From positions 24,853 through 88,852 of the forward strand of contig DJJR01000016.1 of assembly GCA_002434245.1 (NCBI GenBank): 64,000 nt of DNA. Direction: 5' to 3'. The translations under genes and the position numbers were made by a program. Shown here piece after piece: positions 1,284 through 16,329 of this stretch (position 1 is its first letter; every line of letters starts with the position of its first letter). Below the pieces are notes generated by a model, which did not search any database, was not told the DNA's origin, and saw only the letters and a list, made by a program, of their open reading frames with translations. The stretch is from Pelosinus fermentans. Lineage in GTDB: Bacteria > Bacillota > Negativicutes > DSM-13327.

Positions 1284-1314
1284 TTAATCTGATCAAAAAA
1301 ATATTAAAGGATTT

Positions 1315-1342
1315 AAAGGTAGAGAAAAACTCTACCTTTTTT
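1315..1342 (+). terminator. Rho-independent terminator after the flavoprotein gene
   Basis: A 10-bp perfect stem (AAAGGTAGAG with CTCTACCTTT) has an A5 loop and is followed by a T-run. It ends the 372-1283 transcript and isolates it from the tail module that follows. Confidence 0.9.
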
Positions 1343-1541
1343 CTGTTTATTTTACATTTTATATTATATTTAGGATTTTATGTCATATTTATGTCAGTTA
1401 CAAAGCTATTTCAAAGGTGTATGTTTAAATAGTGGAAAGCATTACCAATATTACTGTAGCCTTATGATGAATAACGGAGGAATTTGAATTTGAAGAAATG
1501 TGATTAAGTAAAGTCATAAATAGAATCAGGGAGAGAAGTTT

Positions 1542-1982
1542 ATGATAAATGAAGGCAATATGCTTAGTTATGAGAGATTTAAGGGCCTGATGGGCAGAAC
1601 CTCATATGATAATAAATTAGCTAATACTAATCAATTTACTAGAAAGGTAGAAGCGGCTTTGTATGATTATCCTATGTGGAAAGTCAATTCAGAACTACTT
1701 CAATCTCAATATAAAGGGAATCCGACACTAGCGAAGGATATACTGGAATCTCCGACAGAAAGACTAGGTATACGACGTCTTGATTATGTTTCGCATATTA
1801 AGCTTATAGAAGCCACTATGGCGGTTTTAAGTCCCCTACAGCAAGCCTTTGTCCAACAAAGATATTTCAGAAGAACTCCTTTTAAGATTATTGCTGAAGA
1901 GTTGGCAGTAACGGAACGTCATTTATATCGTATTCGGCAAGAGATTATTCGGTTGTTTCAAATATCTTTTGGTTGGCTTTGA
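1542..1982 (+). CDS. ArpU/sigma-70 region 4-like phage late transcription regulator
   Basis: This 146-residue protein has a C-terminal helix-turn-helix of sigma region 4 type: LSPLQQAFVQQRYF, then a second helix ending TERHLYRIRQEIIRLF. This layout is typical of ArpU/RinA-like late-gene activators of Firmicute phages. The ATG follows a GGGAGAG ribosome site. It is the first gene of the tail module and is transcribed with it, so I infer that it switches the module on. No integrase, CI or Cro-like gene accompanies it. A sigma-like factor acting directly with RNA polymerase is an alternative. Confidence 0.75.
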   Translation: MINEGNMLSYERFKGLMGRTSYDNKLANTNQFTRKVEAALYDYPMWKVNSELLQSQYKGNPTLAKDILESPTERLGIRRLDYVSHIKLIEATMAVLSPLQQAFVQQRYFRRTPFKIIAEELAVTERHLYRIRQEIIRLFQISFGWL

Positions 1983-2010
1983 AATGATGTCAATTTGACA
2001 GTGAAAAATA

Positions 2011-2057
2011 TACCTATCTAAATTCAAGAAGATTTGTACGGATAAAGAAATGAGGGA
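2011..2057. repeat. Imperfect direct repeat, copy 1
   Basis: TACCTATCTAAATTC (2011-2025), 9 variable bases, TGTACGGATA (2035-2044), then an ATGAGGG block. The same arrangement recurs at 2598-2642. This copy is downstream of the ArpU-like gene and outside any convincing gene. Confidence 0.8.
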
Positions 2058-2361
2058 CAATATCAAAAGTAGGATTGATGAGAATTATACGATGCACGGA
2101 AGCACGCATATGAGAAAAAATACAATAGTTTTAAAAACATACTATAAGGGGGTTCATAGTCGGTTTTGATAAGCGAGATTTTTCTGTATATAGTATATCC
2201 TAACGAGTATGCCACATTCATGTAAGTTAGAATTTCAATATAAAGTAGTATATTGATAAAATCGAAAAATATATAAGGGGTGTGATAGTATCGACTACAC
2301 ACAAAAACAAATAAGACGAACTATTGAACGATATCAAGAACTTCGAAGTCTCGCGGAAGTT

Positions 2362-2619
2362 GTGTCTTCAAATTTAGAAGATGTAGGGACTAGTGATTTT
2401 GTTAAGTGCAAAAGATTTGATCGTATCGTCTGTATATTGGTAGACTTAGATAAATCGATTTTAATGCTTACTCCACGTCAGCGAGAAGTAGTGACTTTTA
2501 TTCAAGATGGTTATTCTACTGCAATGATCGGCCGTAAACTTAATCTTAGTGTAGCGACAATAAAATTTCACTTTAATGCAGCAATTTTTAAAATTAGTAC
2601 CTATCTAAATTCTGGCTGA
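2362..2619 (+). CDS. LuxR/sigma-like HTH regulator, phage module (start uncertain)
   Basis: This protein of at least 85 residues has a C-terminal helix-turn-helix: LTPRQREVVTFIQDGYS, then a recognition helix near LNLSVATIKFHF. It resembles the LuxR/sigma region 4 fold seen in small phage regulators. The first ordinary start is GTG at 2362, but it has no good ribosome site. The same frame stays open back to 2260, and an AAGGGG at 2275-2280 precedes an ATC codon at 2290. Reading from there adds 24 residues containing TIERYQELRSLAEVV, which looks like real coding sequence. The true start may therefore be a rare ATC/ATA codon or a mutated ATG. It probably helps control the tail genes. Confidence 0.65.
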   Translation: MSSNLEDVGTSDFVKCKRFDRIVCILVDLDKSILMLTPRQREVVTFIQDGYSTAMIGRKLNLSVATIKFHFNAAIFKISTYLNSG

Positions 2620-2642
2620 TATGTACGGATAGAGAATGAGGG
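2598..2642. repeat. Imperfect direct repeat, copy 2
   Basis: TACCTATCTAAATTC (2598-2612), a 9-nt spacer and TGTACGGATA (2622-2631), followed by GAGAATGAGGGG. It covers the 3' end of the HTH gene and the ribosome site of the next gene. The two conserved blocks and their 9-nt spacing match copy 1. Confidence 0.8.
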
Positions 2643-2649
2643 GAGATAT

Positions 2650-2829
2650 ATGAAATATTATACTATTAATATACTTGAAGCTATGTATCGAGAGAAGTAT
2701 CCTGAATTAGCAGCAACGATAATACACGAAAAGGCAAAGCTGTTGCATAGTCAGCTTAATACACTAGACGTTCGTTGGAAACGTAGTAATCGTTTGTTCT
2801 ATAGTAAGATTGATCTATATGGAATGTAA
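2650..2829 (+). CDS. Small hypothetical phage-module protein (59 aa)
   Basis: This 59-residue ORF begins MKYYTINILEAMYREKYPEL and ends IDLYGM. It starts at an ATG behind a strong GAGGGGAGAT ribosome site. It is basic and helical in appearance, with no signal peptide or membrane segment. It follows the HTH gene by 30 nt in the same direction, as expected for an operon member. I do not recognise the family. A small DNA-binding accessory role is possible but unsupported. Confidence 0.6.
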   Translation: MKYYTINILEAMYREKYPELAATIIHEKAKLLHSQLNTLDVRWKRSNRLFYSKIDLYGM

Positions 2830-3052
2830 TAAGATTGTTTTACTTATAAGGCAATTTTGGACAAACAATTAGAATTTCGAATAGTAATGATAAGAAGATG
2901 AATTATTTTAGATAATAGGAACCGCCAAAGAATTTGAGTTGATCTTTTTAGCACATGCGGGTGTGTAGTATAAAAAATGGTAGTGGAGGTGCGGGGTATT
3001 GAAGTAATAGTAATACAAGTTTTTATGTAAAGTGACAAGGAGGGAGTTGCAA

Positions 3053-3262
3053 ATGAAGAAGAATTTGATGATGCAGCAAAGTAATGCCAAATTACAAACT
3101 TTATTAGAGACGGCATTGGACTTTGCAATGTTAATTACCAATGGAGATCAAGGAAAATTTGAGGTGTTTCGTCGTGTTATGCTTAACAAATATAATGCTC
3201 TAAAAAAAATCAATAGTGAATTCAATGAAGAGTGCAAGCAACAAGAAATTAGTAATATGTAA
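3053..3262 (+). CDS. Small hypothetical phage-module protein (69 aa)
   Basis: This 69-residue, mostly helical, charged protein begins MKKNLMMQQSNAKLQTLLE. I chose the ATG at 3053 because AAGGAGGG lies at the right distance upstream. A GTG at 3032 would precede that ribosome site. It sits immediately before the tail tube gene. In siphophages the slot before the tube often holds a tail terminator or completion gene, but this protein is much shorter than those and shows no similarity I can recognise. Confidence 0.6.
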   Translation: MKKNLMMQQSNAKLQTLLETALDFAMLITNGDQGKFEVFRRVMLNKYNALKKINSEFNEECKQQEISNM

Positions 3263-3310
3263 GTATCTAATGATTATTAAAAAGTACAGAAATATTAGGA
3301 GGAAATATAT

Positions 3311-4258
3311 ATGACTCAGGCACAAGGTGCACAAGGAAGGTTAGTATTTGATTATGAATCCAGTTTTGGACAGAACCCAACTAATAAAGCGGGGAAAATT
3401 TTACCATTCAACACATTAGATGTGAAATCAAAACAAAATTTAAAAGACTTGGCCACTATTACTGGTACGCGAAATCCTGTAGCACCTGCTCCTGGTAATA
3501 TCAGCGTAGACGGAAATATTGTTGTACCTATGGATGAGGCAGGCATTGGATATTGGTTAACAGGATTATTTGGTATTCCTGTAACTACAGGCAGTGATGA
3601 TCCTTATCAGCATGTGTTTAAAATTGGTGCAACGCAGCCTTCTATGGTATTGGAAAAAGGATTTACGGATATTGGACAGTATGTACTGTTAAATAGCTGC
3701 AAAATTAGTTCTTTTAAAGTAGCTTTTGGCGGCGAAGATGAGTTAACGGCATCTATGACAATTATGGGAGCAAAAGAAGTTCTTACATCTACTCCTTATA
3801 TGACTAACCCTTCCAATATGGTCTTATCTCGCTTTACCAACTTACAAGCCAGTATTGAGGAAGGTGGAGCAGCAATTGCTACTATTACTAAAGGTGATTT
3901 TACCATTGATGCAGGGTTGGATGGGACTCAGTATACTATAGGAAATGGTGGTCTCCGCAGCGACATTCCTGCGGGCATCTATAAGATATCTGGCAGTATT
4001 ACAGCTCTATTTGATGGAGCTGCATTATTGGAAAAAGCTCTTGCGGGAACAAAATCAAGTTTAAAAGTGAAGTTTTCAGATGAGAGCCACAGCCTAGAAT
4101 TTTCATTCCCAGAAATTACATATGAACGTAGCACCCCAAGTATAACAGGTCCTGCAGGTGTTTTAATTACACTGCCCTTCCATGCTTTTTATGAATCAAA
4201 TGCTGATAATTCAGCAGTGAAAGTTACCTTGGTTAACGGTGTTGCCAGTTACCTATAA
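3311..4258 (+). CDS. Phage tail tube protein
   Basis: This 315-residue protein has a long beta-rich sequence and the N-terminal pattern of the phage tail-tube family found in long-tailed phages: an FDYESSFG segment, then alternating Gly/Thr-rich strands with FKIGATQPSMVLEKGF in the middle. The tube protein polymerises around the tape measure to form the non-contractile tail shaft. No sheath gene follows, so the tail is not contractile. The start is an ATG after AGGAGGAAAT. It is followed closely by the tail chaperone gene, which is the usual order. Confidence 0.8.
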   Translation: MTQAQGAQGRLVFDYESSFGQNPTNKAGKILPFNTLDVKSKQNLKDLATITGTRNPVAPAPGNISVDGNIVVPMDEAGIGYWLTGLFGIPVTTGSDDPYQHVFKIGATQPSMVLEKGFTDIGQYVLLNSCKISSFKVAFGGEDELTASMTIMGAKEVLTSTPYMTNPSNMVLSRFTNLQASIEEGGAAIATITKGDFTIDAGLDGTQYTIGNGGLRSDIPAGIYKISGSITALFDGAALLEKALAGTKSSLKVKFSDESHSLEFSFPEITYERSTPSITGPAGVLITLPFHAFYESNADNSAVKVTLVNGVASYL

Positions 4259-4280
4259 TTATAGAAAAGGGAGATTACCT

Positions 4281-4547
4281 ATGATGATATTACCGCAAGC
4301 AAGGGCTATGAGCCGCAATGAATTGAAATCTTTTCGTGCTGCTGGTTTGGATCCAGTATTTTTTGACTCTACAAGTGATAATCAATTATCATTTTTAAAA
4401 TTAACAGTCTTAGGAAATGATTGGATTTTGGATAACATTTATAAAGATCATGATTTTGATGACGTACCCAATAATCAACTTGTAGAATTGGCAGAGAAAA
4501 CTTTTCGTTTGACGTATGGGCTGGAGAAAGAAGTAAAAAACTCCTAG
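4281..4547 (+). CDS. Tail assembly chaperone (lambda G-like)
   Basis: This 88-residue acidic protein lies between the tube and tape measure genes, where lambda-like phages encode the tail assembly chaperone G. The ATG at 4281 follows AAGGGAG. Its last codons read GTA AAA AAC TCC TAG, so the canonical slippery heptamer A AAA AAC (4535-4541) lies two codons before the stop. A -1 slip there would join it to the next ORF, as lambda G is joined to T. The chaperone would coat the tape measure protein before the tube polymerises. The call rests mainly on position and the slippery site. Confidence 0.7.
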   Translation: MMILPQARAMSRNELKSFRAAGLDPVFFDSTSDNQLSFLKLTVLGNDWILDNIYKDHDFDDVPNNQLVELAEKTFRLTYGLEKEVKNS

Positions 4548-4598
4548 CGGTCTGGAAATGGGTGGTAGGCAGGCGACAGGAATATTGCGAAGCCTGCC
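4535..4598 (+). promoter_or_regulatory. Candidate programmed -1 ribosomal frameshift element
   Basis: The heptamer A AAA AAC at 4535-4541 is in register with the chaperone frame (AAA at 4536, AAC at 4539). After a -1 slip the ribosome reads CTC CTA GCG GTC TGG and runs without a stop into the DUF1799 ORF. Downstream, GGCAGGC (4568-4574) pairs perfectly with GCCTGCC (4592-4598) as a possible stimulatory stem. The 26-nt spacing to the stem is longer than usual, so the stem's role is uncertain. Confidence 0.65.
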
Positions 4599-4864
4599 GT
4601 AAAACCCAAAATCAGGCCGATAATAAAATTAAATGCAGGACTTGTGAAGCACGTTGTCCTGAAATAATGCTGGAAAATCGTGAGATATGGCAGCTATGGA
4701 TCTATGTGAATACTCAATGGCGTGTAAGTAATGGTGGAATAGTTGGCTTAGACTATACCGCTGTTTTTGCCATAGCAGAAGTTTATGGTATTGAGCTAAC
4801 TCCAGCGTTATGTAGAAAAATAAAAGCATTGGAAATATATGAAATACGGAGACAGGAGGTGTAA
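4562..4864 (+). CDS. DUF1799 tail protein, probable C-terminal part of a G-T-like fusion
   Basis: The C-terminal two thirds match the DUF1799 phage family, around WIYVNTQWRVSNGGIVGLDY and a following helical region. This family usually sits between the tail chaperone and the tape measure. The N-terminal part carries CEAC and CRTCEARC, a four- to five-cysteine cluster that could bind zinc. The listed start is a GTG with only a weak ribosome site. The frame is continuous with the -1 frame of the chaperone gene, so the natural product may be the frameshift fusion, with little or no independent initiation. It ends 3 nt before the tape measure gene. Confidence 0.7.
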   Translation: MVGRRQEYCEACRKTQNQADNKIKCRTCEARCPEIMLENREIWQLWIYVNTQWRVSNGGIVGLDYTAVFAIAEVYGIELTPALCRKIKALEIYEIRRQEV

Positions 4865-4866
4865 GA

Positions 4867-6126
4867 ATGTATCAGATACTTTCGGATGAAGGGTTTGCCG
4901 ATATTTTAATAGCTAAGTTGGTAGGCAGTGATTTTGGGCAAAAGATTGCCGCAGCATGTGAAATGGAACAACAATTATTAGAAAAGTTGAATTCTCTGGC
5001 AGATAACGTTCAGAAAGTTGGGCAGCAGCCAGCTAATGGATTGGGCTCATCAAAGGCAGCAGCTCAAGATAGTAAAAATAAGAGCGATGCTATTCCAAAT
5101 GAATTTGATAAGCTAGTGCAAGCTTCGTTAGAACGATTGAAAAATTATGCGCAGGAACAGTTAAAAAGTGTTATAGCTCATAAAGAATCATTGTCAGAAG
5201 GTCTAAAAAATATATTTAAAAATATATCAGCAGAAATTCCTGGACTATTAACTGCATTACTTGGTAGAAAAATGTTAGATTTATTTGATGGATGGTGGCC
5301 TAAAATCAGCAAATCATTTGAGGAAAAGCTAGCTAAAATATTTAAGATTGATAAAAATAAGGACAATAGTCAATCTTTCAGTGCGGATAAAAATAAGTCT
5401 GTTAATAATGCCTCAAATAATAACGCAAATGGTTCACAATCGGGACAACAAAAAACAAATGAAAAGCTAAGTGACATGCAGATAAATTCTGATTCATACA
5501 AGACAGATACGGCTGTTAAGGTATTTAAAAAAGATATGAGTGAGAAGAAAACGAATTATACGCAGATTATGGAAGAGTCTTTCAATCGTATAAACAGTAG
5601 TACTGAGCAACATTTTAACAAAATGCTTACAGGTGCAGAATCTTTTAGTAAAGGCTTTAAAGGTATTTTCAAGGATATGACAACAGAGATCAGTAAGATG
5701 CTGCTTGAGATATTCTATAAGAAGGTTATAGAAAAACAATTGGGTAAGTGGTTTGGAAATTTCTTAGGTGCGATATTTAAAGCAGATGGTGGACCGGTAT
5801 CATCACAAACATCCTATATCGTAGGGGAAAGAGGACCAGAATTATTCGTTCCTGATCAGTCGGGAACCATTATTCCAAATCATCGCTTGGATGAAACACT
5901 TTCTATGGCAAAACAGCAAGTTACAAGTGGTGTAAAGTATACTTCGTCAATAACAGGAGCCCAAGCACCACCTGTTATTGTTAATGTTGTCAATAAGTCT
6001 GGAGTAAAGGCCAATACAAAGCAGGAGACAAGTTGGGACGGGCAGCAGTATGTTATTAATGTTGTCATGGATGCTTATGCACGTAATGTGAATGGTATGC
6101 GTGATGTACTGGGAGTAAGGAGGTAA
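4867..6126 (+). CDS. Short phage tail tape measure protein
   Basis: This 419-residue protein has long charged helices (residues ~20-270), amphipathic stretches near ISAEIPGLLTALLG and MTTEISKMLLEIFYKK, and a typical tape-measure C-terminal signature: KADGGPVSSQTSYIVGERGP, then ELFVPDQSGTIIPN. It would fix tail length and occupy the tube lumen. It is about half the length of lambda H, implying a short tail (roughly 60 nm at 1.5 angstrom per residue, my estimate). The last ~45 residues, with VNVVNKSGV and SWDGQQYVINVV, are echoed in the lipase at 14820. AGGAGGTG precedes the ATG. Confidence 0.85.
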   Translation: MYQILSDEGFADILIAKLVGSDFGQKIAAACEMEQQLLEKLNSLADNVQKVGQQPANGLGSSKAAAQDSKNKSDAIPNEFDKLVQASLERLKNYAQEQLKSVIAHKESLSEGLKNIFKNISAEIPGLLTALLGRKMLDLFDGWWPKISKSFEEKLAKIFKIDKNKDNSQSFSADKNKSVNNASNNNANGSQSGQQKTNEKLSDMQINSDSYKTDTAVKVFKKDMSEKKTNYTQIMEESFNRINSSTEQHFNKMLTGAESFSKGFKGIFKDMTTEISKMLLEIFYKKVIEKQLGKWFGNFLGAIFKADGGPVSSQTSYIVGERGPELFVPDQSGTIIPNHRLDETLSMAKQQVTSGVKYTSSITGAQAPPVIVNVVNKSGVKANTKQETSWDGQQYVINVVMDAYARNVNGMRDVLGVRR

Positions 6127-6134
6127 TAATCAAT

Positions 6135-6479
6135 ATGACATTGTCAGTATTTCCGAATGTAGCAAATCCTGTATATCCGCTTGATGAAGGGCGGGAGAAT
6201 CCTGCGATATCTTCCCAAATGGAAAATGGAATGGTGATTTCCAGATCAAGGTTTACGCGTATTCGTAAAAAATGGATATTAAAATGGACTGCTCTTAAAA
6301 ATAATGAATATCAACTTCTCATGAATTTTTGGGAACAAATGTGTGGCGGTAGCCAAGAATTTCAATGGGTCAATCCTGTCACTGGTGTTAGCTATATTGT
6401 ACGCTTCACAGGTGAAATAAATTTTCATTTAACTTCTCATGATATGTGGGAAGGAGAGATTACCTTGCAGGAGGTCTGA
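6135..6479 (+). CDS. Minor tail protein, lambda M-like
   Basis: This 114-residue beta-rich protein lies directly after the tape measure and before the L homologue, the position of lambda M. Its sequence (SRSRFTRIRKKWILKW, NFWEQMCGG, EFQWVNPVTG, then RFTGEINFHL) fits the compact distal tail fold of this family. It should form part of the tail tip complex that nucleates tube growth. It starts 8 nt after the tape measure stop. The call uses gene order as well as sequence. Confidence 0.75.
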   Translation: MTLSVFPNVANPVYPLDEGRENPAISSQMENGMVISRSRFTRIRKKWILKWTALKNNEYQLLMNFWEQMCGGSQEFQWVNPVTGVSYIVRFTGEINFHLTSHDMWEGEITLQEV

Positions 6480-6481
6480 TT

Positions 6482-7102
6482 ATGGCACTAAGTTTATCTA
6501 ATATTTCAATTATAGAAAAAAATAAATTAACTTCCGATGGGGCATGGCTGGTTCTACTGGAAATTCAAATAACAAAAGATCTAATTATTAGGATTGTACG
6601 TAATACAGAAGATATTGTATGGAATGGTTATACATGGGTGGCATTTCCTTTTGAGTTAGATGAGATTAAAGAAACTTCCCAAGGTGAACTTCCGCAAATT
6701 CCGGTACGTGTTTCTAATATCTCTCGGAGTATTCAGCAATATATTGAACAGGCCAATGGTGGCGTTGGAGCTACTGTAATGTTACGTGTAGTTCATTCGC
6801 AGCATCTTGATATAGCAGCTGCTGATATAGAAGAAACTTTTACAGTACAGCAAGTTAGTTCAGACAGTATGTGGGTGACATTTAATTTAGGCGGCGATAT
6901 GCCTACGATGCTTCGTTTTCCATTTCGAAGAGTTTTGAAAGATTATTGCCCGTTTATGTATAAAGGGATTGAGTGTGGAGCACAATCCTATCAAGAAACT
7001 TGCAATAAGACATTAGGTGATTGTCGAGAGCGGGGGAATGCAACACGTTTTGGGGGCGAACCCAGTATTCCCCAGGGAGGTATTTATGCATCAAATCGAT
7101 AA
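6482..7102 (+). CDS. Minor tail protein, lambda L-like, four-cysteine C-terminus
   Basis: This 206-residue homologue of lambda L has a beta-rich N-terminal domain and a C-terminal domain ending CRERGNATRFGGEPSIPQGG. Four cysteines (about Cys156, 165, 174 and 181) are spaced as in the lambda L C-terminal domain, which is known to hold an iron-sulfur cluster. The cluster here is inferred from conservation. The ATG at 6482 follows AGGAGGT and is preferred over an upstream ATG at 6446 that lies inside the M-like gene. Its 3' end overlaps the K-like gene by 17 nt, suggesting coupled translation. Confidence 0.85.
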   Translation: MALSLSNISIIEKNKLTSDGAWLVLLEIQITKDLIIRIVRNTEDIVWNGYTWVAFPFELDEIKETSQGELPQIPVRVSNISRSIQQYIEQANGGVGATVMLRVVHSQHLDIAAADIEETFTVQQVSSDSMWVTFNLGGDMPTMLRFPFRRVLKDYCPFMYKGIECGAQSYQETCNKTLGDCRERGNATRFGGEPSIPQGGIYASNR

Positions 7103-7484
7103 ATTGATAGGTAAGCCATTTGTGAATGGTGGCAGAGGCCCCGACAATTATGATTGTTGGGGTCTTGTTTGTGAAGTTTTTAAGATGTATGGGATCAAAT
7201 TACCCGATTATAAAATCAGTTGTGAGGATGTTAGCCGTATAGACGGTGAAATCGATGAACAGAGAAATCAATGGTGCAGGTGTGATGGGGAAATCCCCGT
7301 ACCTGCTCTTGTTGTTATGAGGTTCAATCAGGCTATATTTTGTAACCATACTGGAGTTTACATAGGTGATGGAAGATTTATTCATACTGCTGAGAAAATG
7401 GGCGTTCATATTGATCATATTGATAGTCCAGCATGGCGACGCAAAATTGAGGGCCTTTACGTGCCGGGGTGGCTAAATGGCTGA
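7086..7484 (+). CDS. NlpC/P60 tail tip peptidase, lambda K-like
   Basis: This 132-residue single-domain NlpC/P60 cysteine peptidase has its catalytic Cys24 in NYDCWGLVCEV, its catalytic His88 in CNHTGVYIGDG, and a third His near residue 100. Lambda K-type proteins sit in the tail tip and can cut peptidoglycan peptide cross-links during entry. It lacks the N-terminal Mov34/JAB domain of full-length lambda K and is close to the minimal domain. The ATG at 7086 follows GGGAGG and lies within the end of the L-like gene. Its 3' end overlaps the J-like gene by 8 nt. Confidence 0.85.
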   Translation: MHQIDKLIGKPFVNGGRGPDNYDCWGLVCEVFKMYGIKLPDYKISCEDVSRIDGEIDEQRNQWCRCDGEIPVPALVVMRFNQAIFCNHTGVYIGDGRFIHTAEKMGVHIDHIDSPAWRRKIEGLYVPGWLNG

Positions 7485-10400
7485 TATAACATTAACAATA
7501 CTAAGAAACCCTTTTAACCTTAGTGATAGGGAGATAAAAAAGATAGCCTATATACCAGGAAAAACGATAGGGGAATATATTCAACCCATTATGATGGGGA
7601 TTGATTTAGACGAAATGGTATTAAGCCGTAATGGCACTATCGAAGACAAAGGAAAGATTGCTTCCATACTTGTTGAAAGTGAAGATAATCTAGTAATATG
7701 CCCCCTCGTAGGTAAAGGGGGAGGGAAAAATATTCTAAGAACGATTGCTTCTATAGCACTCATGGCGTACACCGGGAATATAGCGGCTGGTCATGGTTGG
7801 GGAGCAACGTTAGGTGGCGCTGGCTCTTGGGGGGCTTCATTGGCAGCAGGAGCAATTAGCGCGATTGGCGGTATGCTCATTAATCACATGTTCCCACAGC
7901 CTACAGCAGATATGCCAGCAATGGACATGGCAACATCTACGCCAACCTATTCATGGGGAAATTTACAGTCCCTCTCTGGTCAGGGAAATGCCTTGGCTGT
8001 CACTTATGGAACGATGCGGACAGCAGGACAAATTTTGTCTCAGCATATTACCAATGGTGATGGGGATAAACAATACCTAAATATCTTGTTATGTGGTGGT
8101 GAAGGACCAGCCGATAGTATTACAGATATAAAAATTAACGATAATCCAATAGATAATTATCATGATGTTTCAGTGGATATACGTTTAGGAACGAATGACC
8201 AGACAGCAATTTCTAATTTCAATGATATATATGCTGATCAAATACTAAGCTATGAACTGGATAATGATGATACCTGGTCAACTCATCAAACTGAAGGAAA
8301 CGGTGGAGAAGGTCTTGAGATTACCTTTGAATTACCTGGGGGACTGTATCATGTAAATGATAATGGTGATTTAGAAAATGCTACTGTTAAACTTAATGCA
8401 CAATATAAACAAATCGGGCTGTCAGAATGGAACGATTGGTTGGAAACACATATTTACAAGGTATCTTCTTCTGTTAAAGAAAGAATTGGAAGTGTTCAAT
8501 CTTTAAGTGTTGGGAAAAATCCTATTGCTGAAACATGGACATTAAGTAGTATAGGGGGGAATTTGTTTTCAGTTGTAGGATCCGTTTCAGGGCGAAAAGC
8601 AGATGCTAAGGTTGGAGTTGGTTATAATAATGGTTTAATTGGTTTTACGATTATAGGAAATTTATTGGGTCTTTTAGGGGAAGTTTATAACGCGAAGTTT
8701 ACATTAGTTGTTAAGATTAATGAATTAGTAATAACGGCGGCAAAAAATAGCCCAGTACGTAAGGTATATCGTATTGATAATCTACCTGCTGGACACTATG
8801 AAGTTCGTGCGAAATGCAGCTATAAATCAGGTACGACGACAAGAGACAGCACTCGACTGTGTTGGACGCAGCTCAGTCATATCAGCTATGATGATTTCTG
8901 CCGTTCCGGTAAAATCCTCGTAGGTATCAAAGCCTTAGCGACTGATCAGTTAAGTGGCAGTATGCCGACAGTGACCTGGTTACAGACAGTTAGCGATATT
9001 AACGTGTATAATCCTAATATTGAAAAATATGAGCAAAAATCGGCTCGCAATCCGGCGTGGGTCACATATGATCTGTTACATCGCTGTAAAATCATAAAAA
9101 ATATTAAAACAGGGATAGTTGAAAATGTAGTTTTTGGTATTTCGGCGAATCGAATTGACTATCAAGCTTTCGTCGATTGGGCTGCATTTTGTACGGAACG
9201 GAAGTTAGAGTTTGAGTATATATTTGATACTGCTTTTGATTTGTGGAGTTCCTTGCAAAAACCAGAAAGTGTGGGAAGGGGGAAAGTCATATTAAAAGGA
9301 ACTCGCTATTCCTGTGTTTGTGATAGACCGACTCAGCCCGTACAACTTTTCACTATGGGCAATATGGTGCAGGATAAATTCCAAGAAGACTTTTTGGGGA
9401 TGAAGGATAGAGCAAATGCTGTTGAAATATCCTTTATAAATAAAGATAAAGGATATCAAAAGGACGCGCTTACCATATATGGAGATGATTGGGATAATGG
9501 CCAGACAATTCAAAATTCAACTCAGATTACTTTGTATGGTTGCACATCTTATCAGCAAGCTTATCGTGAAGGCAAATATCGCCTGAGATTAAATAAATAT
9601 TTGCGGCGAACTATATCCTTTGATGCTGATATTGATGCTATTGCCTGCCAAGTAGGAGATGTGATTTTAGTCCAGCATGATATACCACAGTGGGGTTATG
9701 GCGGTAGGGTACTAGCTGCAACAGAAGATACCATTCAATTTGATCGTAGTGTTACGATGGAACCGGGTAAACAATATTCTGTTATGGTGCGATTTGCTGA
9801 TGATACTCTTATAGAGAGACAGGTCCTTGGTGTTGTAGAAGAAACAGATACCGTGACAGTAGCAAGCTCATTTTCATCTATTCCGCAAAAATGGGATATT
9901 TTTAGTTTCGGTGAAACCCACAAGGTAACTAAACCCTTTAGAGTTTTGAATATTAGCCGTTCCCAGGAATTTAAACGCAGTATTACAGCACTGGAATATG
10001 TTGAAGGTGTATATACAGAAGCAGATACTATTCCAGTAATTGATTACAGTGATTTGGACGATCATATTCCAGAGGTAGGAAACTTGAACTTAACACAGCA
10101 AACCTATAGGCAGAAGGACGGAACGATCATATCTGAAATAGATTGCTCATGGGTAGTACCTAAAGAACATATCAAGAATTCAATTGTCTGGTACAGTAGA
10201 GATGAGGGGCAATCATGGATTTTATGGGGAAATACTACGAATAATTTAGCAGTAATTACAGGAGTTAAATCTCAAGAAACATATTTAGTTAAAGTATGTA
10301 CTCTGAATAATTCCGGTGTAATTTCACCAGGGATAATATCGAAAGAAATTTATATTACGGGTAAAGATCAGCCTCCGTCTAATATTGAGAGTATGGTAGC

Positions 10401-12711
10401 AGAGGTTAATCCCAGTGATAGTACCAAATTAATTCTTAAATGGTCCGCTGTTACCGATATTGATTTAAAAGGGTATCAACTATCAGAAGGTAATACGGTA
10501 GTAACTCTAACACCAATCAATGATAATCAATATATTTTTACAGCTACAAGCAGTAGGCAATACAATTTTAGCGTCGTAGCTATTGATAACAGCGGTAACC
10601 CATCTTCTATACCAGCAAAAATATCTATAAATATTACTATCGAACCAGCTCAAGTGGCTGGTTTTGTTGCGGTGATTCAAGATACTGACCGTAGTCGTGT
10701 GATTTTTTCTTGGGACGCTAACCAGGAGAAAGATCTTGCATATTATGAAATTAGGGTAGGAGACGATTGGTCAACAGCAACGCTCATAACTACACAGCTA
10801 AAAGCTACAAATTATACTCATGCATTGACTGCAGAGGGGAGTCAAAACTTTATGATAAAGGCAATTAGTATTGCAGGATATGAAAGCCTACAAGCGGCGA
10901 AAAAACGCTTACAAATTATCTTACGTCCTGATGCTCCTACAAATTTGCAAGGGTATTCAGATATTAGTGATCGCAGCAAGTTAATCCTGTCTTGGACAGC
11001 TCCTGCGGGTCATGATATTGCAGGCTATGTTATCACTTGTGGCTCACAAGTGTATTTTACTAAAGAGACTACCTATGTTTATGCAATCCCCGAAAGTGAT
11101 ACCTATGAATTTACATTTAAAGCTAGGACAGTGGCAGGATATGAATCAAATGCCGCAAACATAGCTGTAACTGTTATGACTGAGCCAGGAGATGTTACAG
11201 GCTTTGCCATTAGCCAGGACATGAGTGACCACAGCTTACTACATCTAAAATGGAATAATGCACTATATGCGGATCTCGCATTTTTTGAGATTCGAGAGGG
11301 GGGAAGTTGGGATTTTGGGATGTTAGTCGCTACAGGTGTTACAGGGTTGGAATACAATGTTAGAATTAATCAAGAGCGCGAATATAGCTATTGGATTAAA
11401 GCGGTTAGTCGCGCAGGAAAATATAGCCAGTATCCTGCAAATAGTAAGGCAATATATGATCTAAACCCTGCTCCAGTGACCAACATAATAGTTTCCCAGG
11501 ATATAAATGATAGGTCTTTGATTAATGTAGAATGGACAGGTATATCCGAATTAGATTTTGCTTACTATGATGTGCGATATGGGTGGACTTGGGAAGAGGC
11601 TATAAAGCTAACGCAGACTAAAGAAACAAAATATCAATTTCGTCCCACAGATGGTGGAAATGTAAAAATATTGATTAAAGCAATTAGCACTGCAGGATTT
11701 TATTCAGATGAAGCATCTGGGAGTCTGTACGCCCTTATGGAGCCTCAGAATGTAGAAAATTTCATTGTACAGCAAAATGGTGAGTATGTGGAACTATATT
11801 GGGATAGGGCGGTTGAGCATGATGTTGTTGGGTTTGAAATCAGAGAAGGCTGGACGTTTGAATATGGGCAGCTAATTGCTACAAATATAACCGGTAACAG
11901 CTATAAATACAAGGTTGATTTCGATGGTATCTATCATTATTGGATTAAGGCTATAAATCGAAGCAATCGGTACTCTCTCTCAGCTGTAGATCAGCAGTTG
12001 GCAGTAGTTGACCTGCCGCCTAAAAATGTCATTCAGTCATTTGACGAAATCGTCATGCAGAGTGGATTACATAATAAAACCGAATTTGGTGTGAGTGATA
12101 TAAACTGGCAAACAATCGGAGGGCGGTGGAGTGATTACTCAACGACTAAATTTGAGGAAGTCGGCGGCAGACAAGTACTAAGACTCAAAAAAGATGTAAA
12201 CGGAAATTATCCTACATCTGGCACCTATATGTGTGAGCAAATAGACGTAGGCAGGATAATCACAGCTAATATAGCTATAAAATTCCTTTCTACTGTGAAA
12301 TTTCTTGGGGATACGTCGGCTGTACTACAAATGCGTACATCGAAAGATAATAGCGAATGGAGTGTTTGGAAAGACTTCCTGCCTGCTAAATTTGTATTTC
12401 GGTATATCGAGCTAAGAGTTATCTTAACAACTTCTAATCCTACCAAAACTCCTGAAGTAAATAGGTTTGATGTTATGGTAGACTTACCGGATATTGAAAA
12501 AGCAGGAACCATAGATGTCCCTATAGGTGGTATTCGTATTACTTATAATACAGATTTTTTTATTGTTCCTATCGTGACCCCTTATGCAATTGGTGAGGCG
12601 GTACATGTAGAGACTACAAATCGTGATAAAACAGGGTTTACTGCAAGAATATTAAATTTAAGCAACCAGGACGTAGGTGGTACTATGGACTGGCGAGCAA
12701 GGGGGTATTAA
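7477..12711 (+). CDS. Lambda J-like central tail tip / host-specificity protein
   Basis: This 1744-residue protein should form the central trimeric tip and carry host receptor recognition. Residues ~1-150 include a Gly-rich hydrophobic segment like the I/J junction region (ASIALMAYTGNIAAGHG). Residues ~160-860 carry the conserved J core with LSGQGNALAVTYG and LLCGGEGPADSITDI. Residues ~862-1512 hold about seven fibronectin type III repeats of ~92 residues. The last ~230 residues, from PPKNVIQSF to the end, form a beta-rich terminal domain, probably the receptor-binding part. It is longer than lambda J (1132 residues) because of the FN3 array. J proteins normally target outer membrane proteins, which fits a diderm host. 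Confidence 0.9.
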   Translation: MADITLTILRNPFNLSDREIKKIAYIPGKTIGEYIQPIMMGIDLDEMVLSRNGTIEDKGKIASILVESEDNLVICPLVGKGGGKNILRTIASIALMAYTGNIAAGHGWGATLGGAGSWGASLAAGAISAIGGMLINHMFPQPTADMPAMDMATSTPTYSWGNLQSLSGQGNALAVTYGTMRTAGQILSQHITNGDGDKQYLNILLCGGEGPADSITDIKINDNPIDNYHDVSVDIRLGTNDQTAISNFNDIYADQILSYELDNDDTWSTHQTEGNGGEGLEITFELPGGLYHVNDNGDLENATVKLNAQYKQIGLSEWNDWLETHIYKVSSSVKERIGSVQSLSVGKNPIAETWTLSSIGGNLFSVVGSVSGRKADAKVGVGYNNGLIGFTIIGNLLGLLGEVYNAKFTLVVKINELVITAAKNSPVRKVYRIDNLPAGHYEVRAKCSYKSGTTTRDSTRLCWTQLSHISYDDFCRSGKILVGIKALATDQLSGSMPTVTWLQTVSDINVYNPNIEKYEQKSARNPAWVTYDLLHRCKIIKNIKTGIVENVVFGISANRIDYQAFVDWAAFCTERKLEFEYIFDTAFDLWSSLQKPESVGRGKVILKGTRYSCVCDRPTQPVQLFTMGNMVQDKFQEDFLGMKDRANAVEISFINKDKGYQKDALTIYGDDWDNGQTIQNSTQITLYGCTSYQQAYREGKYRLRLNKYLRRTISFDADIDAIACQVGDVILVQHDIPQWGYGGRVLAATEDTIQFDRSVTMEPGKQYSVMVRFADDTLIERQVLGVVEETDTVTVASSFSSIPQKWDIFSFGETHKVTKPFRVLNISRSQEFKRSITALEYVEGVYTEADTIPVIDYSDLDDHIPEVGNLNLTQQTYRQKDGTIISEIDCSWVVPKEHIKNSIVWYSRDEGQSWILWGNTTNNLAVITGVKSQETYLVKVCTLNNSGVISPGIISKEIYITGKDQPPSNIESMVAEVNPSDSTKLILKWSAVTDIDLKGYQLSEGNTVVTLTPINDNQYIFTATSSRQYNFSVVAIDNSGNPSSIPAKISINITIEPAQVAGFVAVIQDTDRSRVIFSWDANQEKDLAYYEIRVGDDWSTATLITTQLKATNYTHALTAEGSQNFMIKAISIAGYESLQAAKKRLQIILRPDAPTNLQGYSDISDRSKLILSWTAPAGHDIAGYVITCGSQVYFTKETTYVYAIPESDTYEFTFKARTVAGYESNAANIAVTVMTEPGDVTGFAISQDMSDHSLLHLKWNNALYADLAFFEIREGGSWDFGMLVATGVTGLEYNVRINQEREYSYWIKAVSRAGKYSQYPANSKAIYDLNPAPVTNIIVSQDINDRSLINVEWTGISELDFAYYDVRYGWTWEEAIKLTQTKETKYQFRPTDGGNVKILIKAISTAGFYSDEASGSLYALMEPQNVENFIVQQNGEYVELYWDRAVEHDVVGFEIREGWTFEYGQLIATNITGNSYKYKVDFDGIYHYWIKAINRSNRYSLSAVDQQLAVVDLPPKNVIQSFDEIVMQSGLHNKTEFGVSDINWQTIGGRWSDYSTTKFEEVGGRQVLRLKKDVNGNYPTSGTYMCEQIDVGRIITANIAIKFLSTVKFLGDTSAVLQMRTSKDNSEWSVWKDFLPAKFVFRYIELRVILTTSNPTKTPEVNRFDVMVDLPDIEKAGTIDVPIGGIRITYNTDFFIVPIVTPYAIGEAVHVETTNRDKTGFTARILNLSNQDVGGTMDWRARGY
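10063..12012 (+). repeat. Tandem fibronectin type III repeats within the J-like protein
   Basis: Repeat units start near 10063, 10369, 10643, 10924, 11182, 11464 and 11740, spaced about 275-305 nt. Each has a Pro-rich start (such as EPGDVTGFA or NPAPVTNI), a mid W strand (LKW, FSW, LSW, VEW or LYW) and a terminal IKA-type strand. Several carry the phrase DLAYYEIR or a close variant, which suggests internal duplication. They probably act as a stalk that extends the receptor-binding end. Confidence 0.8.
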
Positions 12712-12713
12712 TA

Positions 12714-14060
12714 ATGGCATACGATGCAACAAAGCCAGAGGATACGGGATTTCTGTCAGAAGCTCCAAATGAGTTAAGGAATAATTTCAAAGGACTAAAA
12801 GAAGACCAAATTGTTGATGCCGCACTATTGAAAGGATTGGTTCCAGGGAATGGAAATGGACAAATTCCTGTAAACAATGGAACGGAATGCGAGAACTTAA
12901 ACGCTGCTATGCTTAGCGGAAAAACACCAAGTGACTTTGCACCGAAAGTACACACACATAATACTGTAACTGCAAGTTCTGATGGTTTCATGACCTCTAC
13001 ACAAAATAATAAGCTTGCAGGTATTGCAGCAAACGCGGAAGTCAACCAAGTGGCATTTAGTAATGTACTTGTAGGAAGTACAACGATCCAAGCGGATAGC
13101 AAAACAGACACATTAGAAATGGTTGCAGGAACCAATATAGCTATTACTCCAGATGCGACTAATGATAGGGTTACCATTGCAGTTAGTGGCAAAGTTGGTA
13201 GTGCAGCAACTGCTGATAATTGCATAGGAAACTCGGCTACAGCAACTAAGCTAACTACAGCTAGAACCATAGCAACATCGGGAGATGCCATTGGAGTGGC
13301 TGTAGCCTTTGATGGAACGGCAAATGTTACGATCCCCCTCACACTAGCCGCAAGCGGAGTGGTGGCAGGTACCTATAAAAGCGTTACTGTTGATGCAAAA
13401 GGTAGAACGATTGCAGGGACTAACCCGGCGACATTGGCGGAATATGGAATTACTGATGCTTATAGTAAGACAGAAGCAAATATTAATTTTGCACCTTCTG
13501 GTGCTGGACTTGGAACATTAGCAAAAGATATATCGGGGCAAAATATATTAGTTGTAAAAGGGAAAAGTGGGTTTTATAGAGGTAATAATGTAGGTGCAGC
13601 ACCTAATTCAAGTTGGTGGTATTTTGTCGTAGTTGCACATGACCTTAATTCTTACACCACTGTTGAGGCAATCAACTTTTTTGGAACAGAGAGATATACA
13701 GCACGAATCGATAACGGAATATGGTCTGGATGGATGCAAATAGTAACAGCAAATATGATACCAGAAAATACACTTGGAGATGCAGGACACTACTTTGTAC
13801 AAAATGGCTTTCAAAAATTATCAAATGGATTAATAATACAATGGGGAATAGCAAAAGGTAAAACTGTATCTTATTTTCCCATTGCTTTTCCAAGCGCATG
13901 TTTTAGTGCAGTTGGTTCGATGAATATTGGAGGAGATAGCGCTCGTGGTGTTACTAGCATTGTTACAACAGCAACTAGTATAACAATATATGAGCATGAA
14001 TCCGATGGTGGAGAATCAAGAAGTGGCGATTCAATACGATATATTGCAATAGGATGTTAG
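12714..14060 (+). CDS. Tail fibre protein with fibre repeats and a pyocin-knob-like domain
   Basis: This 448-residue fibre has an N-terminal attachment region, then repeats of phage-fibre type (TARTIATSGDAIGVAVAFDG, then GVVAGTYKSVTVDAKGR). Residues ~275-345 resemble a pyocin knob (GKSGFYRGNN, TARIDNGIWSGWMQI). A C-terminal domain opens with QKLSNGLIIQWG, a signature of gp53-like fibre tips. It should be a trimeric side or terminal fibre that binds a surface polysaccharide. It starts 2 nt after the J-like gene. The knob fold is known from R-type pyocin fibres and many phages, so it does not by itself prove a bacteriocin. Confidence 0.85.
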   Translation: MAYDATKPEDTGFLSEAPNELRNNFKGLKEDQIVDAALLKGLVPGNGNGQIPVNNGTECENLNAAMLSGKTPSDFAPKVHTHNTVTASSDGFMTSTQNNKLAGIAANAEVNQVAFSNVLVGSTTIQADSKTDTLEMVAGTNIAITPDATNDRVTIAVSGKVGSAATADNCIGNSATATKLTTARTIATSGDAIGVAVAFDGTANVTIPLTLAASGVVAGTYKSVTVDAKGRTIAGTNPATLAEYGITDAYSKTEANINFAPSGAGLGTLAKDISGQNILVVKGKSGFYRGNNVGAAPNSSWWYFVVVAHDLNSYTTVEAINFFGTERYTARIDNGIWSGWMQIVTANMIPENTLGDAGHYFVQNGFQKLSNGLIIQWGIAKGKTVSYFPIAFPSACFSAVGSMNIGGDSARGVTSIVTTATSITIYEHESDGGESRSGDSIRYIAIGC

Positions 14061-14070
14061 GGGGAGAAAT

Positions 14071-14442
14071 ATGTATTTTGGTAATTACGACATTACTGGG
14101 AAATATATAGGATTTTACACTAAGGAGATTAATGGAGACAATATTCCAATACCAAATATTGAATTATCAGAAAAAGAATGGCAGGAAGCGTTAATAGGTA
14201 ACTATAAGGTGATAAACGACAAGCACACTTATTGTGAACCGATACCATTAACAGCAGAAGAAATAAAACGCCAAGATTTATCTGCATTAGATGAAAAATA
14301 TCAACCGCAATTCGCCGAGCTGTCTCGGGCTCTAAACATGGCAGCACTAGCTGAGAATAGTATTTTAATCACCAGCATCAAGATTGATTATATGACATTA
14401 AAAACTGAGTACGATACAAAGCGAGGTGAGATAGATGGCTAA
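14071..14442 (+). CDS. Tail fibre assembly-like protein
   Basis: This 123-residue protein lies directly after the fibre gene, the usual place for a fibre chaperone. The N-terminal half is compact (MYFGNYDITGKYIGFY). The C-terminal half has the helical pattern PLTAEEIKRQDLSALDEKY seen in proteins that follow tail fibres. Such proteins assist folding or trimerisation of the fibre tip. It starts after GGGGGAGAAAT and ends overlapping the next tiny ORF by 8 nt. A small structural tail protein is an alternative. Confidence 0.65.
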   Translation: MYFGNYDITGKYIGFYTKEINGDNIPIPNIELSEKEWQEALIGNYKVINDKHTYCEPIPLTAEEIKRQDLSALDEKYQPQFAELSRALNMAALAENSILITSIKIDYMTLKTEYDTKRGEIDG

Positions 14443-14515
14443 AAGGTGTTTTGTATGTGGTGCAAAAGAGCAAGACAGTAAATGTACAAATCAAAATTGC
14501 AGTCGTAGCAAGTAG
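14435..14515 (+). CDS. 26-residue Cys4 mini-protein (zinc-ribbon-like)
   Basis: This ORF of 26 codons encodes CFVCGAKEQDSKCTNQNC flanked by basic residues. The two cysteine pairs (CxxC and CxxxxC) look like a minimal zinc knuckle. It has a strong GAGGTGAG ribosome site five bases before its ATG, and it overlaps the end of the fibre-assembly gene, so translation is likely coupled. It is the last small gene of the tail operon before a 300-nt gap. I know no function for it. Confidence 0.5.
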   Translation: MAKRCFVCGAKEQDSKCTNQNCSRSK

Positions 14516-14588
14516 GAACCATTTGGCTCTACCTTTTATACTAATCTTAAAATTCTTTGTTGAAGTCTCTAAAGAATTAGATATCACT

Positions 14589-14638
14589 TTTTGTATCTTG
14601 GGCGTTTGGCTTTATGCCTAAACTCTCAAGATACAAAA
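14589..14638. repeat. Strong inverted repeat in the gap before the lipase gene
   Basis: TTTTGTATCTTG (14589-14600) is the perfect reverse complement of CAAGATACAAAA (14627-14638), with a 26-nt loop. It has no T-run placed like a terminator on either strand. It lies in a gene-free stretch (14516-14819) where I see nothing else apart from a GGAAGGAG ribosome site at the end for the lipase. It may be an RNA processing or attenuation hairpin, or a scar of recombination. Confidence 0.6.
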
Positions 14639-14819
14639 TTTAAGTTGCCATTCTTTTTGGGCAGAAGTTGATGAAATAAGCTAGCGGAAGTAGTGAGCTT
14701 AAATATTGGACAGATTCTGAGCATAATAATCCCGCAAGCGAAATACCTATTAAGGGTACGTGTAAGGGGAAGTTTGAAAATAGATTGATAAATAAATTAG
14801 TAAATAAGGAAGGAGTACC

Positions 14820-16163
14820 ATGTCAAAAGTATCTACTCAAGATTACATAGCGTTAAGTTCATGTGTATATGATCATGGACTTATTCCACAAGGTTTCGAT
14901 TTAATAGAATACTGTGAAGAAGCAGGCTTTTATGGAGCTGCATATGCTTGGCTAGACACTAACGAGATAGTTATTGCATTTCGTGGAACTACATTTACTG
15001 ATATTTATGATATTGTGAATGATATTGCAATTTTATTTCAGAAGGTAGTGTTCCAAACAAGATACGCATATTCACTGTATAAACATGTTAAAAAAATATA
15101 TCCAAAAGCAACGATTTCTTTAACAGGACATTCTCTTGGTGGTGCGTTGGCAGAATTAGTAGCTGTACTAGTCGCCCGGGACGAAGGAATCGGAATTCAT
15201 ACCGAAACTTTTAATGCACCCGGAGTGAGTGAAATTGCCTTAGTTTCATGGGAGAATTTTCAGGAGTTTGAGCAGTTTGATATTATAAACTACTATAATC
15301 CTTGTGACGCGATTGGCACATATGGTCAACATGTTGGTATTGAATTGCCAATACTACCAGGGGAATTATATAAAAGAAAACTGAACGAAGAGGGATGGGA
15401 AAATGAAAATCCGGCAGACTATCTAATAAAATTTACAAATGAGCCAGGAGCTCATTTCATAGCGTTCTTTATAGAATATTATAGAGTTGATGAAAATAGC
15501 TTTAGTAAAGAAGAGGGTGTTATAGATCGTGTGACCCAAATTGTACCAGATGATGAAGTCTGGCCTTATAATAACCAAATTAGTTATGGGGCTGTTCCTT
15601 ATTTTAATATAGAGGGAATTGTAATCTTCTCAAATAAAATGGAGGAAATACATACAGAGAAACAACAAGAATCCTATGCTAATAACTACTTTCTAATATG
15701 GAAAGAGAAATTTTGGACCACTAATAGTTTAACAAGTCAGTTACAGCAGCAAAACAATAAATTTACATTTAAGCAACAATGGTTTTATGAGAATTATGAC
15801 GAGAAATTCAAAGGATTATCTCAAAATTTAAATCTAATAGCTGCTGATATGTACCAGCAATCTGATATGTTAATGTTTAAAATGAGTAGGAGCTTATTTG
15901 ATAGCTTTACACAAGAGCAGAAAGGTAAAGAAGAGAATACGAGTTTTCCGGAGCAAACTAACAAAGGGATGCCAAATGCTGATTTTGCATCTCAGTATCG
16001 TTATAAGTATGACAGTAATAAGTTTTCTTTAAAAAATAGAACATCAGCACAGCAGGCAACTGTGAATATTGTAAATAATTTGGGTGTCAATCTTTCAGCA
16101 ATATCGAATACCAGCTGGAATGGACGTCAGTGTGTAGTGGATGTAGCATTAAGTGAGCAGTAG
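14820..16163 (+). CDS. Class 3 lipase-domain protein with tape-measure-like C-terminus
   Basis: This 447-residue protein has a class 3 (fungal-type) alpha/beta-hydrolase lipase domain at residues ~5-210. The nucleophile elbow is GHSLGGALAEL with Ser105, preceded by FRGTTFTDIYD. An Asp is visible in NPCDAIG and a His in GAHFIAF, giving a plausible triad. Residues ~270-400 are Gln-rich and helical. The last ~35 residues, with VNIVNNLGVN and TSWNGRQCVVDVAL, resemble the C-terminal end of the tape measure protein at 4867. There is no signal peptide. It lies in the tail module, ahead of a terminator. It could be a tail-borne or lytic lipase acting on membrane lipids. That role is inferred. Confidence 0.8.
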   Translation: MSKVSTQDYIALSSCVYDHGLIPQGFDLIEYCEEAGFYGAAYAWLDTNEIVIAFRGTTFTDIYDIVNDIAILFQKVVFQTRYAYSLYKHVKKIYPKATISLTGHSLGGALAELVAVLVARDEGIGIHTETFNAPGVSEIALVSWENFQEFEQFDIINYYNPCDAIGTYGQHVGIELPILPGELYKRKLNEEGWENENPADYLIKFTNEPGAHFIAFFIEYYRVDENSFSKEEGVIDRVTQIVPDDEVWPYNNQISYGAVPYFNIEGIVIFSNKMEEIHTEKQQESYANNYFLIWKEKFWTTNSLTSQLQQQNNKFTFKQQWFYENYDEKFKGLSQNLNLIAADMYQQSDMLMFKMSRSLFDSFTQEQKGKEENTSFPEQTNKGMPNADFASQYRYKYDSNKFSLKNRTSAQQATVNIVNNLGVNLSAISNTSWNGRQCVVDVALSEQ

Positions 16164-16220
16164 CGGCATTTTAGTGAAGCATATAAAGTAAAGAGAATTA
16201 AATAAAACAGAATGAATAAC

Positions 16221-16269
16221 ATCCGCGATTGCAAGGTATTGTAAAATCATTGCACGCGGATATTTTTTT
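16221..16269 (+). terminator. Terminator at the end of the tail module
   Basis: ATCCGCG (16221-16227) pairs with CGCGGAT (16255-16261), extended inside by GCAA with TTGC, and is followed by a T7 run. It closes the lipase transcript. Confidence 0.85.
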
Positions 16270-16329
16270 ATTTTATAACTAACAAAACAAAATACTAATA
16301 TCAGAATATAAAAACTTTTTCACAGAACC

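Follow-up and report, generated by a model that had tools for sequence, protein, structure and literature searches.

A headless tail module at one site in Pelosinus

What does a bacterium maintain when its chromosome carries the tail genes of a phage and none for the head? This question was raised by a locus of Pelosinus fermentans (assembly GCA_002434245.1), which we examined in a stretch of 64,000 nucleotides of contig DJJR01000016.1 (positions 24,853 to 88,852 of the forward strand; hereafter the window, with position 1 as its first letter). The locus holds a tail module in the order of phage lambda, namely, tube, G, T, tape measure, M, L, K, J, fibre, and probable fibre chaperone, and ends with a lipase gene. 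The last 35–40 residues of this lipase resemble the C terminus of a tape measure. We propose that the locus probably encodes a headless particle like an F-type tailocin, which would be loaded with an effector through this tape-measure-like end and would deliver it into diderm targets.

The insert was bounded by comparison with the empty site of another Pelosinus genome (G002), whose trxR is 98.7% identical. It starts directly after the trxR stop codon and ends at about position 16329, before an ACT-domain gene. Among the open reading frames (ORFs) listed for this interval (1284 to approximately 16329), neither head genes nor integration genes were found. The original prediction, made from this DNA alone, had listed lambda-order tail genes, an activator, and a lipase, and all are present as ORFs with family matches, those of M, G, and the fibre chaperone being weak. 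It had likewise found no head, packaging, or integration genes, which agrees with the bounded insert, and had recognized neither a tail terminator nor a lysis pair, none of which appeared in our window searches either. Its inventory was incomplete in that a LuxR/GerE-type regulator (2362–2619) and a 59-residue ORF (2650–2829), here called C9, were not named.

Two further sequences carry the module at this trxR–ACT site, namely, Pelosinus sp. IPA-1 (G005) and a contig from a metagenome (G380; IMG/VR record 3300048928_000665, 15,690 bases, locus L192) that spans trxR to the ACT gene. Head genes occur in neither. The flanks of the G005 insert are colinear with those of the window, comprising trxR plus 11 more genes upstream and ACT, DUF711, nth, and 5 more genes downstream. 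In six genus mates (G001, G002, G003, G004, G006, and G007) the site is empty, with the ACT gene alone in the approximately 480–530 bp between trxR and DUF711. IMG/VR record 3300013935_000022 matches the window exactly, so it was not treated as an independent case.

A cluster for a contractile tail lies in the G005 insert as well (sheath PF04984, spike PF04717, and baseplate PF04865). Its order is an ArpU-like gene, the contractile cluster, a LuxR-type gene, C9, the tail module with two J cassettes, a holin-like ORF (read so without a family match), a glucosaminidase (PF01832), and a tagged effector. The contractile sheath of G005 had no match in the window genome. Of the two J-fibre cassettes (L022 and L023), the first is nearer to the window J N-terminally, and the second matches it over the full length. 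A second contractile sheath gene of Pelosinus sp. IPA-1, 62% identical, lies far from the tail site (G005 C7:312694-314097, L135).

Such a locus might also act as a tail donor for heads from another element, and a lambda-family portal and terminase do exist in G005 and in two class relatives (G041 and G328), far from their tail-only loci. However, no lambda-family portal or GpA terminase matched anywhere in the window genome (4.55 Mb, 82 contigs, 83.5% complete), none was found in G026 or G333, and the window has no tail terminator for joining heads. Tail donation is therefore extremely unlikely.

Purifying selection and exchange of the tail genes

The ratio of nonsynonymous to synonymous substitution rates (dN/dS) was determined by NG86 on the few available pairs. 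Compared with G380, the core genes gave 0.05 for M, 0.07 for the tube, 0.08 for L, 0.13 for G, 0.16 for K, 0.17 for J, 0.18 for T, and 0.19 for the tape measure; the other values were 0.27 for the ArpU-like gene, 0.40 for the LuxR-type gene, 0.29 for the lipase, 0.54 for the fibre, and 0.06 for trxR. Compared with G005, the ratio was 0.05–0.18 from the tube to K and 0.32 for J. The tail genes are all open, intact frames.

Synonymous divergence (dS) from G005 was 0.30–0.91 from the tube to J versus 1.2–3.7 in four computable flanking genes, with 1.3 for the ArpU-like gene and saturation for trxR. The lower dS of the tail genes indicated that the tail part has been exchanged between lineages. 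In G380, the products from the tube to J are 94–99% identical to those of the window, the lipase is 51–53% identical, and the fibre matches over 156 residues and then diverges. The fibre and the effector are thus the divergent parts of the module. The gap between the fibre and the lipase in G380 is 235 bp, leaving no room for lysis genes, so the module there stayed under selection without them.

The original prediction had named a decayed prophage, that is, a tail remnant of a lambda-type phage, as its main alternative, and had proposed to look for the same locus at the same site in relatives and for purifying selection. Both were found. Decay is favored by the missing lysis genes and tail terminator and by the patchy presence of the module in the genus. 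However, intact tail genes under purifying selection make it unlikely, and the same headless content is found at the same site in three lineages. Furthermore, the LuxR-type gene or C9 occurs in 15 headless loci of the wider family described below, but in none of the 26 loci that have head genes (a further 28 loci, many of them fragments, have neither a head hit nor LuxR/C9). Decay thus seems highly improbable to us, and the tail-only module is very probably maintained by selection.

The lipase carries a tape-measure-like tag shared by other effectors

The likeness of the lipase end to tape measures was measured with a profile built from nine tape-measure ends, none from Pelosinus, with which 843 sequences were scored. 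The lipase reached 25.5 bits (3e-7) and three other effectors 26.4–28.4 bits. By comparison, the highest score among 10,000 shuffles was 12.1 bits, and the next non-tape-measure in the set of 843 reached 5.7 bits. In the reverse search, the effector tag found five places in three of 100 genomes; two were the effectors used to build it and three were tape measures, one of which belongs to another family (G026).

Homology between the lipase and the G005 effector is limited to the C-terminal 190 residues (46%), and a metagenome protein, P0002, has a third N terminus on the same tag. Three unrelated N termini on one conserved C-terminal tag are what is expected of the exchangeable domains of polymorphic toxins. 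The effectors of the window, G005, and G380 also share two features with known tape-measure-related effectors: a region homologous to a tape measure, and encoding with a tail cluster, here at the same place in all three. No solved structure matched the lipase at 0.01, and the N-terminal domain of the G005 effector has no Pfam name. This latter domain (L086:854-2419) recurs in proteins P0021 and P0022 with other C termini and so looks like a mobile effector domain; in P0022, a tag for type IV secretion (XVIPCD, E 0.068) is hinted at below threshold.

The lipase might instead be a release factor, standing in for the absent holin and endolysin in lysis of the producer cell. It lies at the position of the G005 lysis region, and the window genome and G380, which are without those genes, both have a lipase. 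However, G005 has the glucosaminidase and a tagged protein together, and a tape-measure-like end has no role in lysis. We therefore regard a release function as very unlikely.

The tape measure is short and without strongly hydrophobic segments

Open frames of the four window-type tape measures span 357–427 residues, and their hydrophobicity maxima are 0.74–1.13; these are not four independent cases, since three are from Pelosinus. Twelve distinct tape measures in loci with head genes have 794–1573 residues and maxima of 1.46–2.27, these twelve being the ones that the profile found (the prophage tape measures of G006 and G008 were missed by it and left out). Two contigs without head hits (L138 and L169) have tape-measure frames of 629 and 621 residues with low maxima of 0.75 and 1.22. 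For the window tape measure, Pfam Tape_meas_lam_C gave 0.018, below the family cut-off. A short tape measure without strongly hydrophobic segments favors cargo and speaks against a tape-measure pore.

These data bear on a plain F-type tailocin, whose tail would kill by binding and membrane damage, as described for other tailocins, with the lipase as an undelivered accessory. The tail-only evidence is the same for it, and no immunity gene adjoins the lipase. Nevertheless, it does not explain why the tag is homologous to tape measures or why effector domains are exchanged on it. In addition, hydrophobic segments, present in the twelve phage tape measures compared, are missing from this one. A plain tailocin is thus a possible but rather unlikely explanation.

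Related modules carry toxin genes in the tape-measure place

Matches to the tube were found in 15 of 100 relatives, in 28 of 380 genomes of the class at 1e-10, and in 53 loci of viral contigs; the prophages among the tube-bearing loci carry a lambda-family portal and GpA terminase. In 42 intervals from tube to M lying on one contig in order, 16 held a toxin-like gene without G, T, or tape measure, 25 the reverse, and one (G048) neither. The toxin queries were drawn partly from the same loci, and, judged by identical tubes, 4 of the 16 (L154, L157, L159, and L163) repeat counted strains, leaving 12 distinct; both circumstances inflate a Fisher test of this split. Head genes related to those of these prophages were absent from all of the 15 toxin-bearing loci, several of which are short fragments.

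Named families in or beside the toxins included an EndoU nuclease (4e-11) followed by a CdiI_4-like gene just below the cut-off, CdiI_ImmP (2e-46), Imm42 (3e-33), and Tdi1_C twice (4e-9 and 2e-9). Tox-REase-3 (7e-21) followed by Imm7 (1e-40) formed a pair at a contig start, with the contig's own tube downstream. Most of the tail toxins are without a named family, as are some neighbors, and NCBIfam named 0 of 10 tail toxins at 0.01. Like polymorphic toxins, the tail toxins of these class relatives have a common N-terminal part, a variable C-terminal toxin, and adjoining immunity genes; unlike them, the toxin gene sits between the tail tube and the tail tip, where a tape measure is expected. Sporomusa silvacetica (G328) carries three tube–toxin–M units in tandem, whose toxins are alike over about 120 N-terminal residues and then diverge, and in Lucifera butyrica (G333) the gene order is rearranged and two toxins are present. 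In tail-only loci of relatives, the toxins and immunity genes that stand in for the tape measure make up a separate system. They were observed at L029, L031, L032, L034, L037, and L067-L071 (in G015, G010, G034, G041, G074, G328, and G333).

In the tube tree, toxin-type rows group together (21 rows, support 100/99), as do those of the window type (4 rows, 100/100). Both lie within a 32-row branch (95/92) that includes one prophage, G324.

Proposed mechanism and evidence against it

The original prediction of a tailocin stood as far as a tail-only, maintained locus is concerned, and missed the cargo side, namely, the tagged lipase and the toxin in the tape-measure place of related modules. In the mechanism that we propose, the product of the locus would be a lambda-type tail with neither a head nor a contractile sheath. 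Some Pelosinus retain this locus at a single position in the chromosome, and strains have exchanged it. Assembly of the tube, the short tape measure, and the M-L-K-J tip would follow the lambda pathway. The C-terminal end piece of the lambda tape measure works at the tip during assembly. Since the C terminus of the lipase is such an end piece, we propose that the lipase is built into the tail as cargo. The fibre or J would then bind a diderm target and K would open the wall, upon which the tape measure and the lipase would be released into the target envelope, where the lipase may attack phospholipid and kill the cell.

Several observations weigh against this proposal. The module is missing from six of the eight genus genomes. 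A search of the IMG/VR record that matches the window exactly yielded no homologue of the tail terminator that relatives have. The two window gaps searched contain no homologue of any of the three G005 lysis-like genes, and G380 has no lysis genes either. No ORF of at least 60 residues that could be an immunity gene lies between the lipase and the ACT gene. The tag-bearing set is small, consisting of four effectors plus that of G380 only, and we know of no F-type tail in which the end of the tape measure has a role in loading. AlphaFold modeling of the lipase from a three-row alignment gave a mean predicted local distance difference test score (pLDDT) of 29.6 and no usable fold. Furthermore, the toxin core domain was found at 18 places in 12 of 380 genomes, of which 13 are in or beside tail loci and 5 are not, those in G017 and one of the two in G090 being less than 1.5 kb from a contig end. 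The five off-tail places are G020 C5:125779, G017 C9:1408, G090 C25:668 and C49:35623, and G025 C1:2036145, the last within a 2521-residue ORF.

Features of the insert

The features of the insert are listed in Table 1. The name ArpU is the label of the earlier reader; no family match gives that name. A gpI-like stretch (phrog_32, 4e-9) lies within J at residues 68–195. A repeat of about 55 bp at 2004-2056, 3′ of the ArpU-like gene, and at 2590-2649, at the 3′ end of the LuxR-type gene, recurs across strains and is either a common element or the leftover of a second LuxR-type gene. SOS boxes gave no signal, with 16 matches at no more than one mismatch versus 15.65 expected by chance. No near relative was found in phage records, where the best tube match was 31%.

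Table 1. Positions of features in the window and the evidence for each
Feature	Position	Strand	Evidence
Whole insert between trxR and ACT-domain gene	1284..16329 (right edge approximate)		comparison with empty site of G002
ArpU-like transcriptional activator	1542..1982	+	phrog_248 'transcriptional activator' 4e-9; G005 homologue at same place
LuxR/GerE-type regulator	2362..2619	+	PF00196 3e-9; accompanies tail-only loci
59-residue protein C9	2650..2829	+	clustering; in eight of the loci first compared; accompanies tail-only loci
76-residue ORF at the relatives' tail-terminator place (candidate only)	3032..3262	+	G005 homologue; no notable family
Tail tube	3311..4258	+	PF18906 1e-49; phrog_290
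G-like tape-measure chaperone	4239..4547	+	place and relatives; unnamed phrog_33144, phrog_27248 (weak by family)
T-like protein	4562..4864	+	DUF1799 4e-10; phrog_680
Short tape measure, 419 residues	4867..6126	+	phrog_5062 'tail length tape measure protein' 2e-7; unnamed phrog_22443 2e-21
M-like tail tip protein	6135..6479	+	place and relatives; phrog_384 'virion structural protein' 2e-11 (weak by family)
L tail tip protein	6446..7102	+	PF05100 1e-15
K tail tip peptidase, NlpC/P60	7017..7484	+	PF00877 3e-15
J central fibre	7477..12711	+	phrog_31 'central tail fiber J' 1e-180
Side fibre	12714..14060	+	Gp53-like_C PF21882 3e-15; C-terminal part swapped in G380 after residue 156
Probable fibre assembly protein	14071..14442	+	phrog_188 0.08 only; weak homologues 3′ of G005 fibres
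Non-coding stretch matching DNA within G005 lysis region	14582..14756		71%
Effector: class 3 lipase domain and conserved C-terminal tag	14820..16163	+	PF01764 1e-8; tag kept in G005, P0002
Tape-measure-like end piece of lipase, about residues 406-447	16035..16160	+	tape-measure-end profile, 25.5 bits, 3e-7

Relation to known systems and implications

The R/F pyocin locus of Pseudomonas aeruginosa has contractile and non-contractile tail clusters side by side. Pelosinus sp. IPA-1 resembles it in that the two kinds of cluster adjoin at one site, whereas site, regulators, and effector differ and the window has the non-contractile part alone.

F-type tailocins are the nearest known kind. As far as the available excerpt of the rhizoviticin paper goes, its authors name F-pyocin and monocin as the only other F-type cases (PMC10811719). 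The locus shares with F-pyocin, Listeria monocin, and rhizoviticin the headless non-contractile genes, the phage order, the housekeeping flanks, and a divergent fibre. Unlike them, the window has a tape-measure-tagged effector, no lysis genes (which are usual, not strictly defining), and a Negativicute producer, and its killing activity is a prediction; no known regulator or SOS box is common to both.

Tape-measure-related effectors are known, in the excerpts available, from contractile systems of Streptomyces and relatives (PMC11126660; PMC13277306). The lipase resembles Tme (PMC11126660) and Sle1 (PMC13277306) in being derived from or related to a tape measure and in having an exchangeable functional domain, and one Sle1-type pair is described there with an immunity protein (PMC13277306). 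However, Tme and Sle1 belong to contractile systems and have the toxin part at the C terminus, whereas the window has no sheath, and its tag is C-terminal with the enzyme in front. In the open-licence literature, as far as its texts were available, no report was found of toxins or tape-measure-related effectors in non-contractile tails or of tailocins in Negativicutes.

To our knowledge, the toxin-loaded phage tails known so far are contractile. Our analysis suggests that virus tails of the non-contracting kind have been converted into devices for injecting toxins. We see an even chance that Negativicutes carry undescribed, lambda-derived, non-contractile toxin-injecting tails in two branches, one with docking-tagged effectors and the other with the toxin as ruler. 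At that same even chance, Pelosinus would combine a shortened tape measure without hydrophobic segments with exchangeable effectors bearing its C-terminal docking piece, and in the sister branch (Sporomusa silvacetica, Lucifera butyrica, and others) a polymorphic toxin and its immunity gene would replace the tape measure and chaperones, so that the ruler itself would be the toxin. If non-contractile tails do carry protein toxins, sheath contraction would be unnecessary for protein delivery, there would be a killing mechanism to test for F-type tailocins, and what the tape-measure C terminus does could be tested directly.

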